Assembly: GCF_964355755.1 (NCBI RefSeq)
Contig: NC_092679.1
Span: 10,902,932 to 10,966,931 of the forward strand
Direction: 5' to 3'
DNA length: 64,000 bases
From: Antedon mediterranea
Taxonomy: Eukaryota; Echinodermata; Crinoidea; Comatulida; Antedonidae
The position numbers were made by a program, and so were the translations under genes. Positions 6,850 to 63,763 of the stretch are shown here, piece after piece. Each line of letters starts with the position of its first letter. Within the stretch, counting starts at the first letter, position 1. The notes under the pieces are model-generated. The model was not told where the DNA came from and ran no database searches. It saw only the letters and a program-made list of their open reading frames with translations.

Positions 6850-7863
6850 TACAAACTCGATGTGAAACATGCGCAGTCGATCGGTGTTCCACAAGGATCA
6901 ATACTGGGTCCGCTTTTGTTTATCATATACATAAACGATATCGCAAACGTTAGCACTATTTTTAAAACTATAATATATGCAGACGATACAACACTTATAA
7001 GCACCCTCAGGACATGTAATCCAATTAACAACATTCTCAACATTGAACTTGATAAAGTTAGTGAATGGCTTAAATTAAACAAATTATCTTTAAATGTGTT
7101 GAAGTCGAAGTATATGATATTTCATATGAGTAAACGTCGTGTTGATACGTTGGATATAGAAATTGACAATGTTAAGATTCAGCGGGTTCATAATTTCAAC
7201 TTCCTTGGTATAATAATTAATGAACATCTAAATTGGAATAGCCATGGTGATTATATTTCAAATAAGATTTCCAAAACTATTGGCATTTTAAATAAACTCA
7301 AGCGCTTTATCCCAGCAAATGTTATGAATATTTTATATAACTCTTTAGTTGTTTCACACATAAATTATGGTATACTGCTTTGGGGTTATGTTTGTAAAAG
7401 AGTAACAATATTGCAGAAAAAAGCTTTACTTATTATTACTCAAAGTAAATACAATGCCCATTCAGAACCTCTTTTAAAAAAATTCAGATTTCTAAATTTA
7501 TGTGATATTCATAAACTATGCCAATTAAAATGTTACTATAAATATTCAAATAATATGTTACCTGATTATTTTCAAAGGTTTTTTTTAGAACTAAATTCAG
7601 CTTTACATTCGTATAACACACGTATTAAAGACAACTTTCATGTTGTGAGGGTCAATCATGAGTTTGCAAAGAAGTGTATTATGTATAGCCTACCTTTATT
7701 AATTAACAATACTGTAAATTTGATTACTGAAAAGGTAAATACACATTCTTTGAAAGGTTTTTCTACATATTTAAAAAATAATTTTATTTCAGAATATAAT
7801 GATGTATGTTATATCCAAAATTGTTATCAATATATAAATTTACGTAAGGGCAAAATTCGGTAA
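6850..7863 (+). pseudogene. LINE reverse transcriptase, C-terminal two thirds
   Basis: About 333 codons with RT motif B (SIGVPQGSILGPLLF), motif C (YADDT) about 30 residues later, and a normal post-RT region (LKLNKLSLN, FLGIIINEHLNW, SHINYGILLWGY), ending in a stop at 7861-7863. The frame is intact, but endonuclease and motif A are missing, since the fragment starts just after the MITE at 6671-6828. This looks like a Jockey/CR1-type element. No poly(A) or simple-repeat tail was recognised right after the stop. Confidence 0.88.
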
Positions 7864-15899: not shown

Positions 15900-16384
15900 A
15901 AAATTAAACGCGACCGATTTCGAACGCGACTGATATCATCGTAAAACTCCGGCGGGGTTTCCCCATCTTCAGATGGTGCGTTGTAGTGCGACAACGGCGG
16001 AGTAATTCCGGGGGTTTCCCTTTGGTAAGCTAGCACATTAGTGCGACCGCGGAGTGATTAGTCGGTGTTTCCTCTCTAATGATGGGGGTGCGTGCCGATC
16101 GTGTGATCTGAGACTACACGTTCCGTGTTATTTTGTGCATCATTGCGACATTTTACGCACTTGTAAACTATTTTTTAACGTTTTGGGGCGACTTTGCGAT
16201 AGGGCGACTTTGCGATAGGGCGACTTTGCGATGGGGCGACTTTGCGTTGGGGCGACTTTGCGTTGGGGCGACTGTGCGATGGGGCGACTTTGTCGGGGCG
16301 ACTGTGTCGGGGCGACTTTGCGATGGGGCGACTTTGCGATGGGGCGACTTTGTATGGGGCGACTTTGCGATATGGGGCGACTTG
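15900..16384 (+). promoter_or_regulatory. probable 5' UTR/promoter region of the 2A LINE, with tandem repeats
   Basis: About 15940-16110 holds three degenerate ~58-bp units sharing (G)CGGAGT/GGGTTTCC words. 16185-16384 is a minisatellite of about 13 copies of the 16-mer GGGGCGACTTTGCGAT. It lies directly upstream of the LINE coding region on the same strand. Tandem promoter monomers are common in LINE 5' UTRs, so the promoter role is inferred from position. The open frames across the minisatellite are products of the repeat and are not called genes. Confidence 0.55.
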
Positions 16385-16400
16385 ACTAGCATCCGTCAAC

Positions 16401-16505
16401 ATGATGTGTTCGACCGGGCTACGTGTGCCGCTACTTCTTTTGAACTTATTTCTTGGCCTCTATTTTTCAAGTTTTAATATGGGATTTTCATCCAGAAATC
16501 AATGA
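16401..16505 (+). other. possible hydrophobic leader just upstream of the 2A ORF
   Basis: The ATGs at 16401 and 16404 open a 34-codon frame starting MMCSTGLRVPLLLLNLFL, hydrophobic like a signal peptide, with a stop at 16503. The 2A-bearing frame that follows (from 16540) is in a different frame and has no ATG of its own. This could be the displaced original N-terminus. Weakly supported. Confidence 0.3.
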
Positions 16506-16539
16506 CTAAGGCCAGTCGATGGATACTCTGAGCCGGTAA

Positions 16540-16846
16540 GCTGCAACATTCCTAGCACCGTTGTATGTAAATGTTGGAATTTGTATCTATGCGGTCAAAG
16601 CAGTACGACTACGAGTGTTGTTGCATTCCAACGTAGCAGCAGACAGTCAAGGAAGACTCTACAGTGCACCACGTTTGCTCTATTCTAATTCTACTGTTAC
16701 ATTCTGTATTCTTTTAAGTGGCGATGTTGAATCGAATCCAGGTCCAGGTAATACTCAGACATCTTCAGTTAAGGTATACTATCAAAACATACGTAGCCTG
16801 AAGAATAAAATGGACGTATACAACTCAGATCTGAATGTACACCTAA
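16540..16846 (+). pseudogene. N-terminus of CR1/L2-like LINE ORF with 2A-like peptide and start of endonuclease
   Basis: This frame has no ATG start. It encodes ILLSGDVESNPGP at 16708-16746, the canonical 2A/stop-carry-on signature D-V-E-x-N-P-G-P with its hydrophobic lead-in. It continues VKVYYQNIRSLKNK, the first conserved motif of the apurinic-type endonuclease domain of CR1-like LINEs. The frame is broken at 16846 by a transposon and resumes in phase at 19928. A 2A motif ahead of the endonuclease is known from sea urchin and other marine LINEs. There it causes ribosome skipping, separating a short N-terminal peptide from the EN-RT protein. Confidence 0.85.
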
Positions 16847-19800
16847 GGCCAAATAAAAAAAAAATACTTGTTAAGCGTCACACCCTCATAAATTTTCAGG
16901 GGCGGGGGGACGGTTTTTTTTTTTTTTTTTTTTTACTTTTTATGGAGGTATAATTTTGCGCGATGGACGTTTTGGCCCACTTTTTTTTAGGACGAAACGT
17001 CAAACTTTTAAAATGCGAAACAGAACAAAATTGACTATGTATGAAATATTATTGCTTATGACAAAATTGAGTTTTGTATTGTTTATATCCAGACGTAATT
17101 AAAACATTAAATTTAATTGCCACCGAGCGAAATTGTAGGCCCTAGGCTAATCCGTCCAAGCTGCCACCCCCGCCTCACTCATCGGCGGCCATGGTCCCAG
17201 TGGTGGCGCCAGCGGGGGGGCTACGGGGGCTCTAGCCCCCTCGTCGGGGAGCCTAGCCCCCCCGTCGGGGAACACGGGTACTTTTTGTCGGGGAATATAA
17301 TATACAGTAAAAAACGTTCGCGTTCACTTCATGCTTCAGCGCCTAGAAAACCACGACGTTCCATTGACCGTGAGAGTACGTCAGAGGGCTATTATGCACT
17401 TTTATGCATTCATTTATTGCCAGCGATCTAACTTACTACTAAACATTAGCTAGGTACGCACTTGTCTGGCGGTATCCCTTTGTACGAATCGTTCAACGTT
17501 GGGTCGAGACGCGTGATATCAAGTTCCATACAGGGACCAAAATGTGTAATGTAGTTATTTTCCAGGCGAAGTTTACCGACGGTTACCGAAGGGAACACGG
17601 GTACTTTTTGTCGGGGAATATAATATACAGTAAAAAGCGTTCGCGTTCACTTCGTAGCTAGCTTCAGCGCCTAGAAAACCGCGACGTTTCATTGACCGTG
17701 AGAGTAGGCCTACGTCAGAGTGATATTATGCACTTTATATGCATTCATTATTGCCAGCGACCTAACTTACTACTAAACAATAGCTAGGTTCGCACTTGTC
17801 TGGCGGTATCCCTTTGTACGAATCGTTCAACGTTGGGTCGAGACGCGTAATATCATGTTCCATCCAGGGACCAAAATGTGTAATGTAGTTATTTTCCAGG
17901 CGAAGTTTACCGACGGTTACCGAAGGGAACACGGGTACTTTTTGTCGGGGAATATAATATACAGTAAAAAGCGTTCGCGTTCACTTCGTAGCTAGCTTCA
18001 GCGCCTAGAAAACCGCGACGTTTCATTGACCGTGAGAGTACGTACGTCAGAGTGATATTATGCACTTTATATGCATTCATTATTGCCAGCGACCTAACTT
18101 ACTACTAAACAATAGCTAGGTTCGCACTTGTCTGGCGGTATCCCTTTGTACGAATCGTTCAACGTTGGGTCGAGACGCGTAATATCATGTTCCATCCAGG
18201 GACCAAAATGTGTACTGTATAGTTATTTTCCAGGCGAAGTTTACTGACGGTTACGTCGTGTACTGCGTCGACGTACGCTACACTACAGCAAAAACGAATT
18301 ATGTTAATTGTTCGTATGTTCACCAATTTTTTAATTTACAAGTAACCTTCTGTACCGTGGGGCACCTAAAATAAATTTTTCATCCATTACTAAACAAAAA
18401 AACATGCCATTTTCTTATTATAGCTAAGTTATTACATTTTCAATGTCCTGTATGTCATGAATTTCTCACCACTCGGAAGTCCAGATAAACAGTTTCTTAG
18501 CTCAGCCCCAACAATAAAGCTGGTCATATTTCGAAGTACAAGAAGTGCATTTTCCGCGACCTAACATCTCTATTTTTCAAAAATTTCTTAGCTCAGTCAC
18601 AACCATGATAGGGACTATTTTGTTTCATGTTTTGAAGTATATTAAGTCCAATTTCCGGGACCTCCAACTCTATTTTTCTAAATTTTCTTTGAACTTTTAT
18701 TTTTTAAATTGAAAAATATGGATTGAAACAGTCATCGCGCATCGTTTTTTTGCACGCAGTATTTTATTTATGCATTATAAAAAATGGAAAAAATGGCTAC
18801 CCTAAATCTGATTAAAATGACCTCAAATAACGCTAGAACGCGTTGCTTCCGGGGGCTTCGCCCCCTGGACCCCCACCGGGGGCCCTTGGCGGCCCCCTGG
18901 CCCCCAGCCTAGTGATGCTCGCTTCGCTCGCATAGCCCCCTCGTCGGGGAATGTAGCCCCCGCGTCGGGAAGATCCTGGCGCCACCCCTGCATGGTCCGC
19001 CGTCTCTCGCTCGACTCATCTATCCAGGAAATTCCCTATCGCGAGAAGCATGATGTTGGTCTCAATAATACTAAATTATAGTGGGCTGATTTTGAAAACA
19101 GCTTACGGCATTTCTTAAGTGAATTTTTATTCAACGTATTCATTCTTCTTTGATGAATCCGTTGCCAATTGCTGTGTAAATCAGTATTTAAAGTTGTGAT
19201 GCGAAAAGTGTGTGTAATTATTCCACAGGTAAACCAGGCATAATAAAACGCATCGTATCGCCGGGCCCATCGCCCAACAGGACCTCGTGGTGTGCCGATC
19301 TCGAGCGCGAGATCATGGTAAACAAAATTGGTAGAGTCCATTATGTATGGGGTGTTTCCTATTTACGAACCTATAAAAAACGCGTTTCGACCACTGTGTA
19401 GGCAAAATATTTATTTCAGTAATCCCTAAATTGATAATCGTGTATTCTGTAATCACGTGACTGATGATGTAATCCTCAGCGACGTACTAAATGCACGTGA
19501 TTTAATGTGTTGGGGAAAAAGCTTGCTGTTTACCACACATGATTCGCGGTGCTATTCGCGTTTCCTTGACGTAAATCGGCGGCGTGTAAATGAAACAATT
19601 GTTTTCACCAAATTGCCGTTGTCGACATAGAGCGATCGGTGGCTAGCTAGCGTGGCTAAGCTAAGAAGTACGTATTTTTCAAAAATTACACCAGCCTAGC
19701 AAACATTTGCTAGTTTTGAAATTTTCAACTAGCAATTATGAATAATCTACTAGCAAAATGCTAGTTTGCTAGCGCGAATTTTGAGCCCTGCTCTAGAGCT

Positions 19801-19927
19801 GGGCCGGGCCGCTAAACTTTCCGTTGTATAGGCCTATGGGTAAAAAAAAAATAAAAATAAAAAGAGAGGCGGCTGGATAATCAGGAGCGGGCGGTGACGC
19901 TTAACAAGTATGTTTTTTTATTTGGCC
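16847..19927. mobile_element. PIF/Harbinger-like non-autonomous TIR element (TSD TAA), hosting a hAT-like copy
   Basis: The ends are inverted over about 38 bp: left GGCCAAATAAAAAAA with TACTTGTTAAGCGTCAC, and right the same in reverse complement at 19890-19927. Flanking TAA at 16844-16846 and 19928-19930 fits the 3-bp target of PIF/Harbinger. Removing the element and one TAA rejoins the LINE endonuclease in frame. Without the nested hAT-like element it is about 1.28 kb. No transposase was recognised in 18999-19890. Confidence 0.85.
17198..18990. mobile_element. hAT-like non-autonomous element, copy 1 (TSD CATGGTCC)
   Basis: Left end CAGTGGTGGCGCCAG; right end reverse-complements to CAGGGGTGGCGCCAG. 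The perfect 8-bp TSD CATGGTCC lies at 17190-17197 and 18991-18998, as expected for hAT. Inside are three tandem units of about 323-334 bp starting at 17271, 17594 and 17928, and a GC-rich right end with GCTCGCTTCGCTCGC. Compared with copy 2 it has one extra internal unit and lacks about 130 bp near 18487. No transposase. Confidence 0.92.
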
Positions 19928-20075
19928 TAATTCAGAGCAATTTGGATATTGTCGCACTTACGGAAACTGAACTTTCCGTTTCTAATTACACATTATTTCG
20001 ATGCGATAGAGATACTGATAAACGCGGTGGTGGTATCCTGATGCTAGTGAATAACAAATTTACCTGTAACCGAGT
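19928..20075 (+). pseudogene. endonuclease segment of the 2A LINE (middle)
   Basis: Encodes LDIVALTETELS and KRGGGILMLVN, the second and third conserved motifs of a CR1-like endonuclease, in phase with 16540-16846. The catalytic Glu of the LTET motif is present. It ends at the GAGT target site of the next transposon. Confidence 0.85.
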
Positions 20076-22259
20076 CAGTGGGAAAGCCACTTCGCGTTTT
20101 GACCGTTAAATCGTGTAAAATCGACTTACTTCCGCATTGACGATTTTGAAGCGCCACCTATCGTTGAAAACTGAAACCACGATTTTTCGTCGCCTAGCAA
20201 ATAAGTGCTGTTTTATTTTAAGCTCTCAAGAATATTTAAGAACCGCCCAACATTACCTATTATGGTAAAAGCATTTCCTAATAAGTATAATTGAATAACC
20301 AATCGGTTTTCTTCAAAGAAACCGAAGCTAATACAATACATTCGGCGACAGAAGTCGGGACTCGTGAAATTTATAAATGTGGTACGATTTGACTACTGTT
20401 TTGTTGTCCATTTTCTGAATAGTTGGAGGTGCATCCCAACAAATTAAAAAAATTGTAATCAATTGTTTTATCAAGAATAATATTAGTTTAATCGAGTATG
20501 ATATATTTCTATCCTGTTCAAAATGTGTTGGTGTATTCTCAGGCCTCGAAAGGTAGGTACATTTTCTAGCTGTGAGCGTGGTTTCGGCAACGCGAGACAC
20601 GTGTGTCAGTATAGGCGATAGCGAGACGTGTGTTGGTACTGTGTTGATGCTGATCCGATAGTCGTTAAGTTGTACTGATTACGAGTATCATTGGTCCTGG
20701 CCGGCCTAGCCTGGTGATCTGATCCCCCCCCCCCCAAAAAATACTTTTTTTCAATCAGTATTAATATTATTTTATTTTTCATTTATTATTTGATTTATTA
20801 GGCTCAATAGATGCCTAGCTAGGCTACTAGTAGGCCTAGGCTAGATTATATAAATAATAATAGTAATTACTATAATTTAATTAATAAAATACAGCTTCCA
20901 TTTGCCTTACTTTTATGTCATCATATAATATTATAATTATATATACAACCAGGACATTAACATTTTTTTAAAATAATATTTATTATTTTTTCTGACACTT
21001 TCAGGAATCGTTGATGATGCAGAGTTCTTTGTCTTTGTGACTTCAAACTGAGAGTGAAGTGGATAAAAAGATGACACCGGTACCTACCGACATTGTCATA
21101 CCCAAACTATAATTTAATTATTTAAAACAAAATGTTGAATTACAAATATATATGTATGTTGCAGAGGATTTAGATGAATTACAATACAAATATTTATGTT
21201 GAATGCAAACCTACTACACTATACTCTGTAAATGATGTTATTGTCATGTGGTAGACCTTAAAAATTGAATATTTATTGTATGTTAGGCCTATTTTATATT
21301 TTAATAATACTCTATTAGTTTAATATTACTATTAATTTATATTATACAGTACTAGGCCCCTAGGCCTAGTTTGTACATGTTTTTACCCCAAAAAAATGAA
21401 TAAATAATTTGTTATTCAATCTAATTGCTTGTTTGTTCATCAATAACAAAACAATTGTAAGCAAGTATATAACAGTTCTTGTTAGCCGCTTATTTCAGGT
21501 CATATTATTAATATTAGCTAGGCCCGACGCGCCCGATCACAACGTCACTAAGTGACTTTCCGCCCCTGGAACAATCGCTCGCTAATAGGGCTAGGCCTCG
21601 GACTCGTATAAAAGCTATTATAATAGTTATGATAAATATTCCTCAACTAAAATGTTTACTGTGATAAATAAACAAGTAATAATATACGTTGTATTGGAAT
21701 GTATTTATTTATATGAATTCTTATACGCGGACAATTATAAACATCGCGTATATCGTTCGCTATAAATAAATTCATAAACACGATGACGATGTGTTTACAA
21801 AATGGCGGTTTCGCTAGTTTTCGATGGAACAAATAGTGGTACCTTTAGTTTGAATAGTCGGAGCTGCATCCCAACCACCGAATTTTGTATCTTAATATCG
21901 TATTCTGTAGATTATTAATTTTTCTAACAGGGATTTTAAATTCAGGACTGTTCAATTTTTCTAAATATTTTATTTTAATGATTTTCTAGGGTACAATTTC
22001 GGAAAAAAGACATTGGTTGATTTTGCCGTTAAATTACAGATTATCGTTTTGTTCAAATACATTTAATTTTACATGACAATATATTAAAACCATTTATGAA
22101 TTTATTTCACAAACAACATTTTTCCGATAATCAACTAAATTTACAAATATTGTGTTTTTCCAACACCCTAAAATTTAGCCATTTTGAACTAAATTAGAAA
22201 AGTAGGGCGCCCTCTCCGAGTCGAAATTTGACACGATTTGTCGACTGGCTGTCCCACTG
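20076..22259. mobile_element. 2184-bp TIR element with 4-bp TSD (GAGT), superfamily unknown
   Basis: Left end CAGTGGGAAAGCCA; right end reverse-complements to CAGTGGGACAGCCA, with weaker inverted similarity for about 50 bp (both arms contain AAATCGTGT). GAGT flanks it at 20072-20075 and 22260-22263. Excision at these points keeps the LINE endonuclease frame, which supports the boundaries. The interior is A+T-rich with no recognisable transposase; two near-copies of GAATAGT(T/C)GGAG(G/C)TGCATCCCAAC lie near 20416 and 21855. A 4-bp target is unusual, so the class is left open. Confidence 0.72.
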
Positions 22260-22299
22260 GAGTGGAACGCCTAGAAAGTGATTCAACGGAGTTCATGTG
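22260..22299 (+). pseudogene. short endonuclease segment of the 2A LINE between two transposons
   Basis: Forty bases that read VERLESDSTEF, a conserved strand of the endonuclease domain, in phase with the pieces before and after. It ends in the hAT target TTCATGTG. Confidence 0.75.
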
Positions 22300-23904
22300 C
22301 AGTGGTGGCGCCAGCGGGGGGGGGGGGGGGAGCTACGGGGGATCTAGCCCTCTCGTCGGGGAGCCTAGCCCCCCCCCCCCGTCGGGGAATACGGGTACTT
22401 TTTGTCGGGGAATATAATATACAGTAAAAAATGTTCGCGTTCACTTCATGCTTCAGCGCCTAGAAAACCACGACGTTTCATTGACCGTGAGAGTACGTCA
22501 GAGGGCTATTATGCACTTTTATGCATTCATTTATTGCCAGCGATCTAACTTACTACTAAACATTAGCTAGGTACGCACTTGTCTGGCGGTATCCCTTTGT
22601 ACGAATCGTTCAACGTTGGGTCGAGACGCGTGATATCAAGTTCCATACAGGGACCAAAATGTGTAATGTAGTTATTTTCCAGGCGAAGTTTACCGACGGT
22701 TACCGAAGGGAACACGGGTACTTTTTGTCGGGGAATATAATATACAGTAAAAAGCGTTCGCGTTCACTTCGTAGCTAGCTTCAGCGCCTAGAAAACCGCG
22801 ACGTTTCATTGACCGTGAGAGTACGTCAGAGTGATATTATGCACTTTATATGCATTCATTATTGCCAGCGACCTAACTTACTACTAAACAATAGCTAGGT
22901 TCGCACTTGTCTGGCGGTATCCCTTTGTACGAATCGTTCAACGTTGGGTCGAGACGCGTAATATCATGTTCCATCCAGGGACCAAAATGTGTACTGTAGT
23001 TATTTTCCAGGCGAAGTTTACTGACGGTTACGTCGTGTACTGCGTCGACGTACGCTACACTACAGCAAAAACGAATTATGTTAATTGTTCGTATGTTCAC
23101 CAATTTTTAATTTACAAGTAACCTTCTGTACCGTGGGGCACCTAAAATAAATTTTTCATCCATTACTAAACAAAAAAACATGCTATTTTCTTATTATAGC
23201 TAAGTTATTACATTTTCAATGTCCTGTATGTCATGAATTTCTCACCACTCGGAAGTCCAGATAGTACGCACGCATACACTTGGGAGGAATAAACTTATTT
23301 CCCCGACTGAAAAAGCTCTACGCTTGCGTTTTTTAAGCCTCTAGGCCTGATGTTTCCAAAGTATAAAATGCAATTTTTTGAAGACCTGCAGCTCTAGTTT
23401 TAAACAGTTTCTTAGCTCAGCCCCAACAATAAAGCTGGTCATATTTCGAAGTACAAGAAGTGCATTTTCCGCGACCTAACATCTCTATTTTTCAAAAATT
23501 TCTTAGCTCAGTCACAACCATGATAGGGACTATTTTGTTTCATGTTTTGAAGTATATTAAGTCCAATTTCCGGGACCTCCAACTCTATTTTTCTAAATTT
23601 TCTTTGAACTTTTATTTTTTAAATTGAAAAATATGGATTGAAACAGTCATCGCGCATCGTTTTTTTGCACGCAGTATTTTATTTATGCATTATAAAAAAT
23701 GGAAAAAAATGGCTACCCTAAATCTGATTAAAATGACCTCAAATGACGCTAGAACGCGTTGGGGGCTTCGCCCCCTGGACCCCCACCGGGGGCCCTTGCC
23801 GGCCCCCTGGCCCCCAGCCGGCCTAGTGATGCTCGCTTCGCTCGCATAGCCCCCTCGTCGGGGAATGTAGCCCCCGCGTCGGGAAGATCCTGGCGCCACC
23901 CCTG
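22300..23904. mobile_element. hAT-like non-autonomous element, copy 2 (TSD TTCATGTG)
   Basis: Same ends as copy 1 (CAGTGGTGGCGCCAG and its inverted CAGGGGTGGCGCCAG). The perfect 8-bp TSD TTCATGTG lies at 22292-22299 and 23905-23912. It has two internal units of about 323 bp (starting near 22388 and 22711) where copy 1 has three, and retains about 130 bp near 23265-23395 that copy 1 has lost. It interrupts the LINE endonuclease. Confidence 0.92.
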
Positions 23905-24185
23905 TTCATGTGGATAGAGATTCAGCTAAAGCGGCGTATTAGCCTACTTGTTGGATTATTCTATAGACCACCGAACGCTACACTCGATGTCCTCCGTCGT
24001 TTTACTTCGTCTGTGGAAATCGCTATGCTCTACTACAAAAACAGTGAATTCCTCATTCTTGGAGATTTCAACCTGACCGAAATTAATTGGAGTAGGAACC
24101 CTTATTCTGCTCCAGCTCAGTCCATGGGAGAACACTTACTTGAATCCAGAAAAATACAAACAGTTAGTATACACAGTCTAATTGC
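23905..24185 (+). pseudogene. C-terminal endonuclease segment of the 2A LINE
   Basis: Encodes LLVGLFYRPPN and LILGDFNL, the YRPP and GDFN motifs of LINE endonucleases, including the catalytic Asp/Asn pair. The coding sense ends where gypsy sequence begins (about 24186). The remaining EN C-terminus and the EN-RT linker are missing, so this junction also includes a deletion. Confidence 0.85.
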
Positions 24186-26996: not shown

Positions 26997-27660
26997 GATC
27001 ATTTTGGGACCCGTAACACAAGTCAAATAATCTTCCTTCTGTCATGAGTAATGATAACATTTCATTCCAGTCTAATTATGATAAAGCTACCACATTTAAT
27101 TCTTATTTTCATTCTTTTTTCAGTGAGCCTTCTCCGGACGTTCCCTGGGACTATCCAGGTCTTCCTGACTATCTGTGAATCAGCATTCTGTGGAAAAGGC
27201 ACTTAGTAACATTGATATCAATAAAGCTACTGGCATTGATCAGATTAGTAACGTTGTCTTAAAGGGTGCCTCCTCCTCACTCTCTTATCCGCTTTGCAAA
27301 TTGTTTCAGCTATCTTTTAATTCTGGGGTTTTTCCTTCATCTTAGAAACACGCTAATATTGTCCCAATTCACAAGAGTGGTCCCAAAAAACTAATCTGTA
27401 ACTATTGTCCTATTTCGTTATTGCCTACTATGTCTAAGATTTTTGAGCGCATTGTGCATGATGGTTTGTCATCACAGTCCTAGGCAGCATGGTTTTGTCT
27501 CTGGGAGATCATGTCAAACCAACCTCGCACTGCTTCTTGCTACATCATACGATGCAATTAACAGCAAGAAGCAGTGCGATGTGATTTACACTGATTTCTC
27601 TAAGGCTTTTGATTCCGTTTCCCATGATTTGCTTATTTTTAAACTTTCAAAATAATATAT
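26997..27660 (+). pseudogene. RT segment of the 2A LINE, frameshifted, 3'-truncated
   Basis: Coding sense resumes with FNSYFHSFFSEPSPD, then EKALSNIDINKATGIDQIS, IVPIHKSG, and finally QHGFVSGRSCQTNL and VIYTDFSKAFDSVSHDLL (RT motif A with its catalytic Asp). There are several frameshifts and stops, including one at 27345 and one before QHGF. It stops before motifs B and C (YADD). Position and orientation fit the continuation of the element whose endonuclease lies at 16540-24185. Confidence 0.8.

Positions 27661-48565: not shown

Positions 48566-48645
<80 letters not shown>
48550..48645. repeat. (TA)n microsatellite
   Basis: About 45 uninterrupted TA dinucleotides, shortly after a smaller (TA)n at 48190-48231. 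An (AATAA)n run near 48737-48760 looks like the 3' tail of a LINE. Confidence 0.9.
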
Positions 48646-48646
<1 letters not shown>

Positions 48647-48779
48647 ATCTGTATTTTATTGTTAACCGTTTTTGATGTATTGTTTTTTGTTTCAAACCTG
48701 TTAGTGGCGGTATTTATCGCTGTTGGTTTTGACTGAATAAAATAAAATAAAATAAAATAAAAATACTCATGATATTAAC

Positions 48780-61182: not shown

Positions 61183-63763
61183 TTATCTATGTTTAATTTT
61201 GTAATATTGTTTCAATTCAGTTTTAAATTTAGATGTGTTGGAAATTTGTTTAATATAGTCAGGAAGGTTATTCCATTCTCTGATTGCATTAAAATAGAAT
61301 GTATTGCATTCTATGCCTTGGACTTTAGGTACAACGAAATTGAGTTTACTACCACGAGTGAAGTGACCATGTAAGTCATTAACTCTACGAAAGTTTTCGT
61401 TTAGGTATGAAGTACTTCTGCCCATAAATATCTTATGAACTTGGCTAATTTGCAAGAACTTTACTCGATATTGTACATTTAACAATCCATAATCGTCTAA
61501 TTGATACCTATATGTCTTCTGGGTTCAACTCCTTTTATGAGTCTAACCATTTTGTTTTGAGCAATTTGTAGTTTTCTTTGGATAGCTTTACTGGTTCCAC
61601 AGAATCGAGAAGATGCAGCATAATCAAAAATACATTGGATGAGAGCAGAGCATAATAGTTTACGATTCTTACAACTTAGTATCTTACGTTGGCGGTACAT
61701 AAACTTAAGCCTATTATTTATTTTCTTAATGGTTTTACATGCATATTCAGAACACGTTAAATTTTGATCTATTTCAATACCCAGATACTTGACACAATTA
61801 GTAGTGTTGATATTGTTACCATTTGTTGAGACATTAAAATTGTTAACCTTTTTAGTTTTTCTCTTAGAACCAAATAGTATACATTCAGTTTCATCCAGGT
61901 TAATTGTTAATTTATTGTCTACAAGCCAATCACACAAGGAGTCTAGTGTTGACCCTAGCTTCTTAGAAATAATATCTGGATTTCTGTGTGAATAAAATTG
62001 CACTGTCATCAGCGTATAGAAGGAGTTTACAATCAGGATCAATACAAGTTACCATGTCATTAACAAAACATAAGAACAAAAGGGGTCCAAGGATACTTCC
62101 TTGAGGAACCCCGCATGTAACAGTACAAGATTGAGAGCAATGATCATCAACAGTTACTATTTGCTTTAATTCTTATTGATAAGTAAGATTTAAACCATTC
62201 AATAGATCCAATACCCATTAATCATTAGCTTATTAAATAAAATGTCATGATCTACAGTGTCAAAAGCCTTCTTTAAATTGACCAACACCATACCCGAGAA
62301 ATTTCCCTTAGAAGTTTGGGTTTTAAGGGAATCAACTAAGTCTATCAAACATGTGTCAGTAGAGAAGGCAGCTCGAAATCCAGATTGATATTTATACAAT
62401 ACGTTGTTTTCAGTAAAGTATTTTTCGATTTGAATAAAAACAGCCTTCTCTAAAATTTTAGACATTGTACTGAGTATACTTATAGGGCGATAGTTTCCAA
62501 TATGGGTTCTACTACCTTTTTTATAAAGAGGTATGACCTTGGCCTTTTTCATGTCTTCTGGGACTGTACTGGTACTAATTGATAAATTAATTATGTAGGT
62601 AATGGGAACTTTTAGAATTTCAGCCCCATCTTTTATGAAGCGGGGAGGTATCTTATCGACACCCGTGCTTTTTGTCGCATTAAGTTGGTTTAATTCACTA
62701 TATATAAAGTCTTCGTCCACTGAGTTGACCATAAAGTTATTGCCAATAACGGTTCTATAGAAATCCTTAAGTTTGGACGATGTCATACACATTCTTAGGG
62801 GATGGAAGTTTACTGACCAAATTGGCTGCAATAGTAGTAAAATATTCGTTGAAGCAAGAAGCAATTTTGGCTGGGTCGAAACATTTAGTACCATTGGGCA
62901 GGTCAATAACCGTTTTAGCACTATCCTTAGATTTATTACTATAGCCTAGACCTTTAAACATTTTCCATAATTTTTTAGGGTTATTTTTATTTTTTTCAGC
63001 CTTGTTTAACAAATGATTTGATTTAGCTTTATTTATATCACGCTGTATTTTATTTCTTAGTTTGCGAAATTGTATTAATAAGTCGGTATTTATAGTCTTG
63101 TTTTTATTATACATATTTAATAATTTATCTCTGGTTTCAATGTCTTGTAATATTTCTCTAGTTAACCATGGTTCCGTTCTTGGTTTCATCCTAATGTTTT
63201 TAAGGGGGGCAATGGAATCAATAGCAGCCAAAAGTAATGCATTAAATTTATACAGAGCTTCATTTACATCTCCGATAGAGGTAACTACTGACCAATCGAT
63301 ATCTATTAGTATGTTTCTAAATTGATCAACGGTATAGTTTTTTAGTGATCTGATATATACATTTTTATGTCCATTGAACTTAAGTTTAATAGTTTTCCGT
63401 GTACAAAATGTCATTAAGTGATCGCTTAGACCTGTTGCGATTGTACCCGATTGGCTTATCTTATTCTCATTATTACATAATATATGATCGAGGCATGAAG
63501 CAACTGTAGGGCATATCCTAGTTGGTTCAGTTACTTTGTTACTTAAACTAAACATATTTAGAATTTGATTATAGCTATTCAATAAAGATGACTTTGTTAA
63601 AGTACATATATTAAAATCGCCAACAACAATTAATTCACTGTCCATTCCAATTTTAGATAACATATTTTCAAACAGAGTTAGAAAGTTCGTTTGCTTTGGT
63701 GGTCTGTAACATGTTCCAATTATAATGGGTTTGGTTTTAGGCAGGTTCAGTTCAATCCAAAGT
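61183..63763 (-). pseudogene. LINE with endonuclease and RT, frameshifted, minus strand
   Basis: On the minus strand the order is YRPPKQTN (about 63690) and GDFN (residues 15-18 of the 62767-63663 frame), then CLDHI and SDH of the endonuclease. Next come a Lys-rich linker, RT motifs YRPISIL, GFRAAFSTDT and motif A, then GVPQGSILGPLLF near 62090, YADD near 62015, and the post-RT region down to the stop at 61183. Three or more frame changes (about 62800, 62200, 62000, 61490) break it. Motif A reads VNLKKAFDTV, with Asn where the catalytic Asp is expected. The endonuclease is cut at 63763 by another transposon. A Jockey/CR1-type element, clearly inactive. Confidence 0.88.

Follow-up and report, generated by a model that had tools for sequence, protein, structure and literature searches.

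A 2A-like motif behind hydrophobic leaders in LINE families of the crinoid Antedon mediterranea

Does the motif DVESNPGP that stands ahead of a LINE endonuclease in Antedon mediterranea belong to a genuine 2A-like ribosome-skipping site, and what might the protein segment in front of it do? We addressed these questions starting from a stretch of 64,000 nucleotides of contig NC_092679.1 (positions 10,902,932 to 10,966,931), hereafter the window, and extended the analysis to the 354-Mb genome.

The 2A core and its LINE family

The sequence LLSGDVESNPGP is encoded at window positions 16711-16746 (+), and is followed in the same frame by GNTQTSSVKV and then by YYQNIRSLKNK (16777-16809, +), which the sequence and a domain search identify as the start of the LINE endonuclease domain. 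Its DVESNPGP core (16723-16746, +) is the sole D.E.NPGP match in the six frames of the window. The extended 2A, read from the sequence as YSNSTVTFCILLSGDVESNPG/P, occupies 16681-16746 (+), with the expected skip point lying between the Gly codon at 16741-16743 and the Pro codon at 16744-16746, the place of skipping being taken from PMC4981915 and PMC12846837. The residues TFCILLSG precede the core in the window family and fit the L-rich upstream class ending in (A/S/C)G that is described in PMC12846837. A search of the genome with a degenerate DVExNPGP pattern gives 29 matches vs none for the reversed control, and a wider pattern, in which Asn, Ser and some Gly codons were also permitted in first place, has 97 matches, all of which (97/97) begin with Asp, again vs none for the control. 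As a third pattern, GD(V/I/M)xxxPGP, has 199 matches vs two in the reversed control, a chance match is ruled out. The original observation, that a complete 2A signature stands directly before YYQNIRSLKNK, is borne out. Position 16540, from which the frame had been read, is a mere reopening of the frame after the TAA at 16537-16539, and the boundary of the element lies elsewhere.

The 5' part of the LINE copy spans 16395-16846 (+), starts 6 bases upstream of the leader ATG and is 97.6% identical to the intact sister copy L009 (blastn and alignment; L numbers denote loci). By alignment, the leader, 107 residues long in the sisters, takes up 16401-16722 (+) and comprises a hydrophobic N-terminus, a variable body and the upstream 2A context; it is broken in the window. 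The ATG at 16401 is the leader start of the intact sisters, so that the hydrophobic frame noted there originally proves to be real, being the start of the single reading frame of the sister copies. Beyond a 3.1-kb insertion the LINE continues with endonuclease sequence at 19926-20075 (+), then with a piece of 40 bases at 22260-22299 (+) flanked by two more insertions, and with further endonuclease sequence at 23904-24143 (+), all by blastn and alignment. The reverse transcriptase region follows at 27015-27653 (+, blastn), with about 0.6 kb of the element missing between 24143 and 27015. A 3' end of a same-family element with a (TAAAA)n tail lies at 48625-48765 (+, blastn and alignment), and may be of the same copy or of another. 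Since the element resumes downstream behind the insertions, a 3'-truncated or fused gene is ruled out. With its frame stopped by a TGA (16503-16505) and shifted by one base near 16657, its 5' truncation just ahead of the ATG and its interruption by three insertions, the window copy is a dead, non-functional member of a young LINE of the endonuclease type with a single ORF.

The three insertions that split it (16847-19925, 20076-22259 and 22300-23903) look like DNA transposons: their termini are inverted, and short duplications flank them (TAA-like, GAGT and TTCATGTG). The first contains a 334-bp unit in three repeats (17268-18254). A 16-bp tandem array of 12.7 units of TGGGGCGACTTTGCGA (16184-16383) adjoins the LINE copy; it is ruled out as a part of the LINE since the aligned sister copies have different flanks there. 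Fragments from other LINE families lie at 62005-63762 (-) and 6883-7422 (+), with 27-43% identity to the protein of the window family.

The 2A site is covered by at least 13 genomic copies, the one in the window included, and all 13 found carry an identical 23-base core; a nucleotide search with the core and a protein search return the same 13 copies, and these counts are lower bounds. NPGP is kept by every relative found that covers the site, whereas its loss would have counted against the original prediction. An open frame of 1065-1070 codons is present in four of the 13 copies (L008, L009, L010 and L012), where an ATG, a hydrophobic N-terminus, the 107-residue leader, the 2A, the endonuclease and the reverse transcriptase follow one another in this order. 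The full-length relatives that had been asked for, in which a single frame runs from an ATG through a hydrophobic leader to NPGP, therefore exist, and in these four copies the 2A separates two coding units within one frame, which is broken in the window copy. Their leader begins with MMCSTGLRVPLLILNLFLGLYFSSF and counts 107 residues before DVESNPGP, its ATG being the first of the roughly 3.46-kb element in the sister alignment as judged by eye. The endonuclease (PF03372/PF14529) and reverse transcriptase (PF00078) domains score above the Pfam cut-off in L009, and the other eleven of the twelve sisters fetched are 97.3-99.7% identical to it over their main aligned stretches. The 3' ends of the elements consist of TAAAA repeats or poly-A, L004 is 5'-truncated as is the window copy, and no clear target-site duplication was seen by eye in the flanks of the aligned copies. 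With the endonuclease before the reverse transcriptase, a simple 3' tail and 5'-truncated copies, the window family fits an APE-type LINE. The search for relatives outside this genome returned one weak locus in viral_contigs at 30% identity and none in genome_contigs.

Hydrophobic leaders across LINE families

Almost every distinct canonical core was sampled by one copy, along with 20 of about 30 protein matches that had no such core; some better-preserved sisters were added later. About two dozen related families in the genome share the build of leader, 2A and enzyme. Downstream of the 2A comes either the endonuclease directly, a PHD-like finger and the endonuclease (L062, L065 and L067, with PHD matches just below the cut-off), or a coiled-coil ORF1-like protein (L014 and L025, by weak matches only). 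Some core matches are decayed or possibly due to chance, e.g. L027, L028 and L039. The tree of 16 downstream proteins, 14 of which come from families with an open leader while the copies of L034 and L035 are broken upstream, contains several deep, well-supported groups, all of them families of one genome. At L026 (C3:15585898-15589198) a 2A-LINE copy is fused in frame within an open frame of 1945 codons, and the piece upstream of it may be a gypsy-type pol fragment.

To the leaders we applied a proxy for a signal peptide, namely, the position of the most hydrophobic 13-residue window, with the 20 residues next to the core excluded. We hand-picked one representative per family wherever the leader was open from Met to core over 60 residues or more (n=25). 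Excluded were the short-leader families L014, L019, L025, L041 and L089, loci without an open 60-residue leader (e.g. L020, L021, L023, L027-L029, L031-L036, L038-L040, L099, L101, L103-L105 and L107), L026, whose leader is replaced by other sequence, loci with decayed cores (e.g. L042, L043, L044 and L052) and same-family duplicates. The hydrophobic maximum falls within the first 37 residues in all 25 representatives, whose leaders are 68-238 residues long, and in 23 of them the N-terminal stretch beats shuffles of the leader's own composition at p<0.05. In a first run the maximum was N-terminal in 18 of 19 representatives, and the one failure, L024, is a copy broken at its 5' end; in its open sisters L070 and L071 the N-terminus carries a clear hydrophobic stretch. 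In the set of 25, L070 replaces L024, L065 replaces L048 (same locus), and L091, L092, L098, L100, L102 and L106 are added. For the window family the maximum starts at residue 9, about 85 residues upstream of the 2A and separate from it, and is borderline taken alone (p 0.053 in the first run and 0.047 in the run with 25 representatives). The leaders of L054 and L055, which belong to one family, seem frame-shifted relative to each other over part of their length, and both N-termini are hydrophobic.

As controls we hand-picked 20 loci without a canonical core and with frames of at least 979 codons among 150 scored PF14529 matches (938 candidates). Three of them proved to have 2A-like cores and hydrophobic N-termini, namely, L089 (DIHPNPGP), L091 (DISSNPGP) and L092 (DVHPCPGP). 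The remaining 17 loci represent 15 distinct endonuclease sequences. A mean hydropathy of 1.6, attained by all 25 representatives, is attained by just one of these (L096/L097), eight of the 15 being without an early Met and therefore scored at the open-frame start only; two others come just below this level (L080 at 1.46 and L084 at 1.34). The difference is marked by Fisher's test (25/0 vs 1/14, p 6e-10) and by the Mann-Whitney test (p 1e-7), where the trials are not independent because the families share ancestry. The one exception to the association between hydrophobic N-terminus and 2A, L096/L097 (C3:29781706-29782866 and C10:7101284-7102444), has a hydrophobic N-terminus, a finger-like Cys-rich stretch and the endonuclease, without a 2A motif. 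The architecture of hydrophobic leader, 2A and enzyme is thus shown in 25 representatives of one genome, and is rare in 15 endonuclease families without 2A.

Variation in the core

We counted core residues in 100 of the 199 GD(V/I/M)xxxPGP matches, the first by position (C1 to part of C4). Among these 100, position 14 is Glu in 47, His in 28, Ser in 15, Ala in five, Asp in two, and Lys, Gln and Gly in one each, so that 53 are without Glu; position 16 is Asn in 87, His in eight, Cys and Glu in two each, and Arg in one. Some of the rare core forms belong to broken copies. Position 14 in viral sequences is almost exclusively Glu, and His at 14 and at 16 is rare yet active in vitro, according to PMC12846837; Ser and Ala at 14 are not among the variants flagged in the portion of this 2026 viral StopGo survey that we consulted. 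Here, Ser or Ala cores occur in several families, four of which have an open hydrophobic leader (L091, L098, L100 and L102). Families with these cores may not skip at all.

His-core families adjoin Glu-core ones in two well-separated groups of the tree (L065 in one, L064 and L066 in the other), and L049, L053, L054 and L056 are nearest by best match to the L064/L066 group. Because His cores are found in two such groups, the change between Glu and His has probably taken place more than once. Many Glu/His families have a common (Y)YSNxTxTF-like stretch upstream of the core, where the Ser/Ala families are Leu/Ile-rich. A YxN pattern, defined after looking at the sequences, occurs upstream in 24 of 35 segments vs 14.0 expected by shuffling, and is found with 22 of 26 Glu/His cores vs one of six Ser/Ala cores (p 0.003), a post hoc comparison to be taken as a lead only; it misses the window family at the edge of its slice.

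A role for the leader, and known systems

From this architecture we lean towards a mechanism in which an ER-targeting leader would bring the translating ribosome to the membrane, and the 2A would release it before the enzyme is made. On emerging, the hydrophobic N-terminus would recruit SRP, and the ribosome would dock at the ER together with its mRNA. At NPG/P the leader would be freed into or at the membrane, and the ribosome would resume from Pro to make a signal-less endonuclease-reverse transcriptase, able to bind its own RNA and to enter the nucleus. A signal clears the ribosome exit tunnel after about 30-40 residues; therefore, with leaders of 68-238 residues, the signal can leave the tunnel before the 2A is read. 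Because the leader bodies are hardly conserved (see below), the leader would most likely serve to target translation, and not to provide a released peptide with an activity of its own.

2A sites with such a context skip one Gly-Pro bond (PMC4981915 and PMC12846837), and a 2A placed behind a signal sequence works on ER-bound ribosomes in Arabidopsis cells, where skipping was raised (PMC3522588). However, some signal-bearing 2A constructs skip poorly in mammalian cells, and the downstream protein slips into the ER (PMC3522588 and PMC5373624). Such slipping would harm an endonuclease-reverse transcriptase and counts against the proposed mechanism. Since residues just before the 2A influence skipping behind signal sequences (PMC3522588 and PMC5373624), the shared upstream stretch could be an adaptation to this effect. 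With clearly less confidence, we tentatively suggest a broader possibility, namely, that in several deep LINE lineages a throw-away signal leader may first direct translation to the ER, with 2A then freeing the enzyme, and that their cores may have drifted (to Ser or Ala for Glu and, in one family, to Cys for Asn, in addition to the known His) and yet still work by virtue of a matching upstream context.

Among the alternatives, the most probable, though in our judgement unlikely, is that the released leader is a functional small secreted or membrane protein, the 2A merely yielding two proteins from one frame. Some leaders are indeed long, contain Cys and are internally duplicated, as in L070/L071, where a 238-residue leader has an internally duplicated Cys-containing segment, and in the all-vs-all comparison of the 25 leaders two pairs, L070-L068 (E 3e-4) and L100-L102 (E 4e-3), have weak stretches in common. 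However, no other pair reaches E 0.01, the five leaders searched in Pfam pass no cut-off, and some leaders have just 68-71 residues. A leader domain shared beyond these two weak pairs is thus ruled out for the 25 leaders compared, five of them also in Pfam. Codon comparisons within families, whose copies were too few, too close or broken, gave no signal of purifying selection on the leader.

Less probable still is a dual targeting like that of the sea-urchin NLRs, by which skipping would be deliberately incomplete and the part of the enzyme still fused to the leader would end up in the ER or be exported from the cell, limiting or redistributing it. This has been demonstrated for N-terminal 2A signal sequences (PMC4981915), and short leaders with a hydrophobic stretch abutting the 2A exist here (L014, L041 and L089). 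In the window family, however, this stretch lies outside the 2A, at the distance given above, and a secreted enzyme is of no evident benefit to the element. Finally, we regard it as very unlikely that these are ordinary 2A LINEs of the published type, which are established among APE-type elements (Odon et al. 2013, cited in PMC12846837 and PMC11512398), with a hydrophobic N-terminus that results incidentally from the AT-richness of the genome (65% AT in the window) or from the choice of start codon, since composition-keeping shuffles rarely match the N-terminal stretch and it is absent from 14 of the 15 endonuclease families of this genome that have no 2A.

If the leader does direct translation to the ER, a throw-away targeting leader split off by 2A would explain the purpose of some 2A sites, and could link assembly of the LINE RNP to the ER and the nuclear envelope. 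To our knowledge, ER-directed translation has no established role in LINE biology. The genome is also a natural library of 2A cores with changed Glu or Asn in their native contexts, partly beyond those flagged in the consulted portion of the 2026 viral survey, so that the sequence rules of StopGo can be tested directly. A keyword search of titles and abstracts, whose reach did not extend to Odon et al. 2013 and the 2025 survey of cellular 2A, found, among the papers listed, no signal leader ahead of a 2A in a LINE.

The sites described here are like the 2A sites of APE-type non-LTR elements (Odon et al. 2013, via PMC12846837 and PMC11512398) in having a canonical core and a frame joined to endonuclease and reverse transcriptase in an animal LINE. 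As far as the citing papers describe those elements, the present families differ from them in the separate signal-like leader (25 representatives) and in that about half of the 100 listed cores are without Glu. They resemble the sea-urchin NLR 2A signals (Roulston et al. 2016, PMC4981915) in placing a hydrophobic N-terminus and a 2A before a large protein. However, in the NLRs the N-terminal 2A of 26 residues is itself the signal, whereas the window family, a LINE, has a leader of 107 residues in which the hydrophobic stretch is set apart from the 2A; it is the short-leader families L014, L041 and L089 that resemble the NLR arrangement (PMC4981915). Compared with viral StopGo as presented in PMC12846837, LLSG-DVExNPGP is close to the class that is L-rich upstream and has Asp at position 12, whereas position 14, almost always Glu in viruses, is here Glu in 47, His in 28, Ser in 15, Ala in five and another residue in five of the 100 matches listed. 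The presence of 2A in LINEs is already known, and the genome-wide leader pattern goes further.
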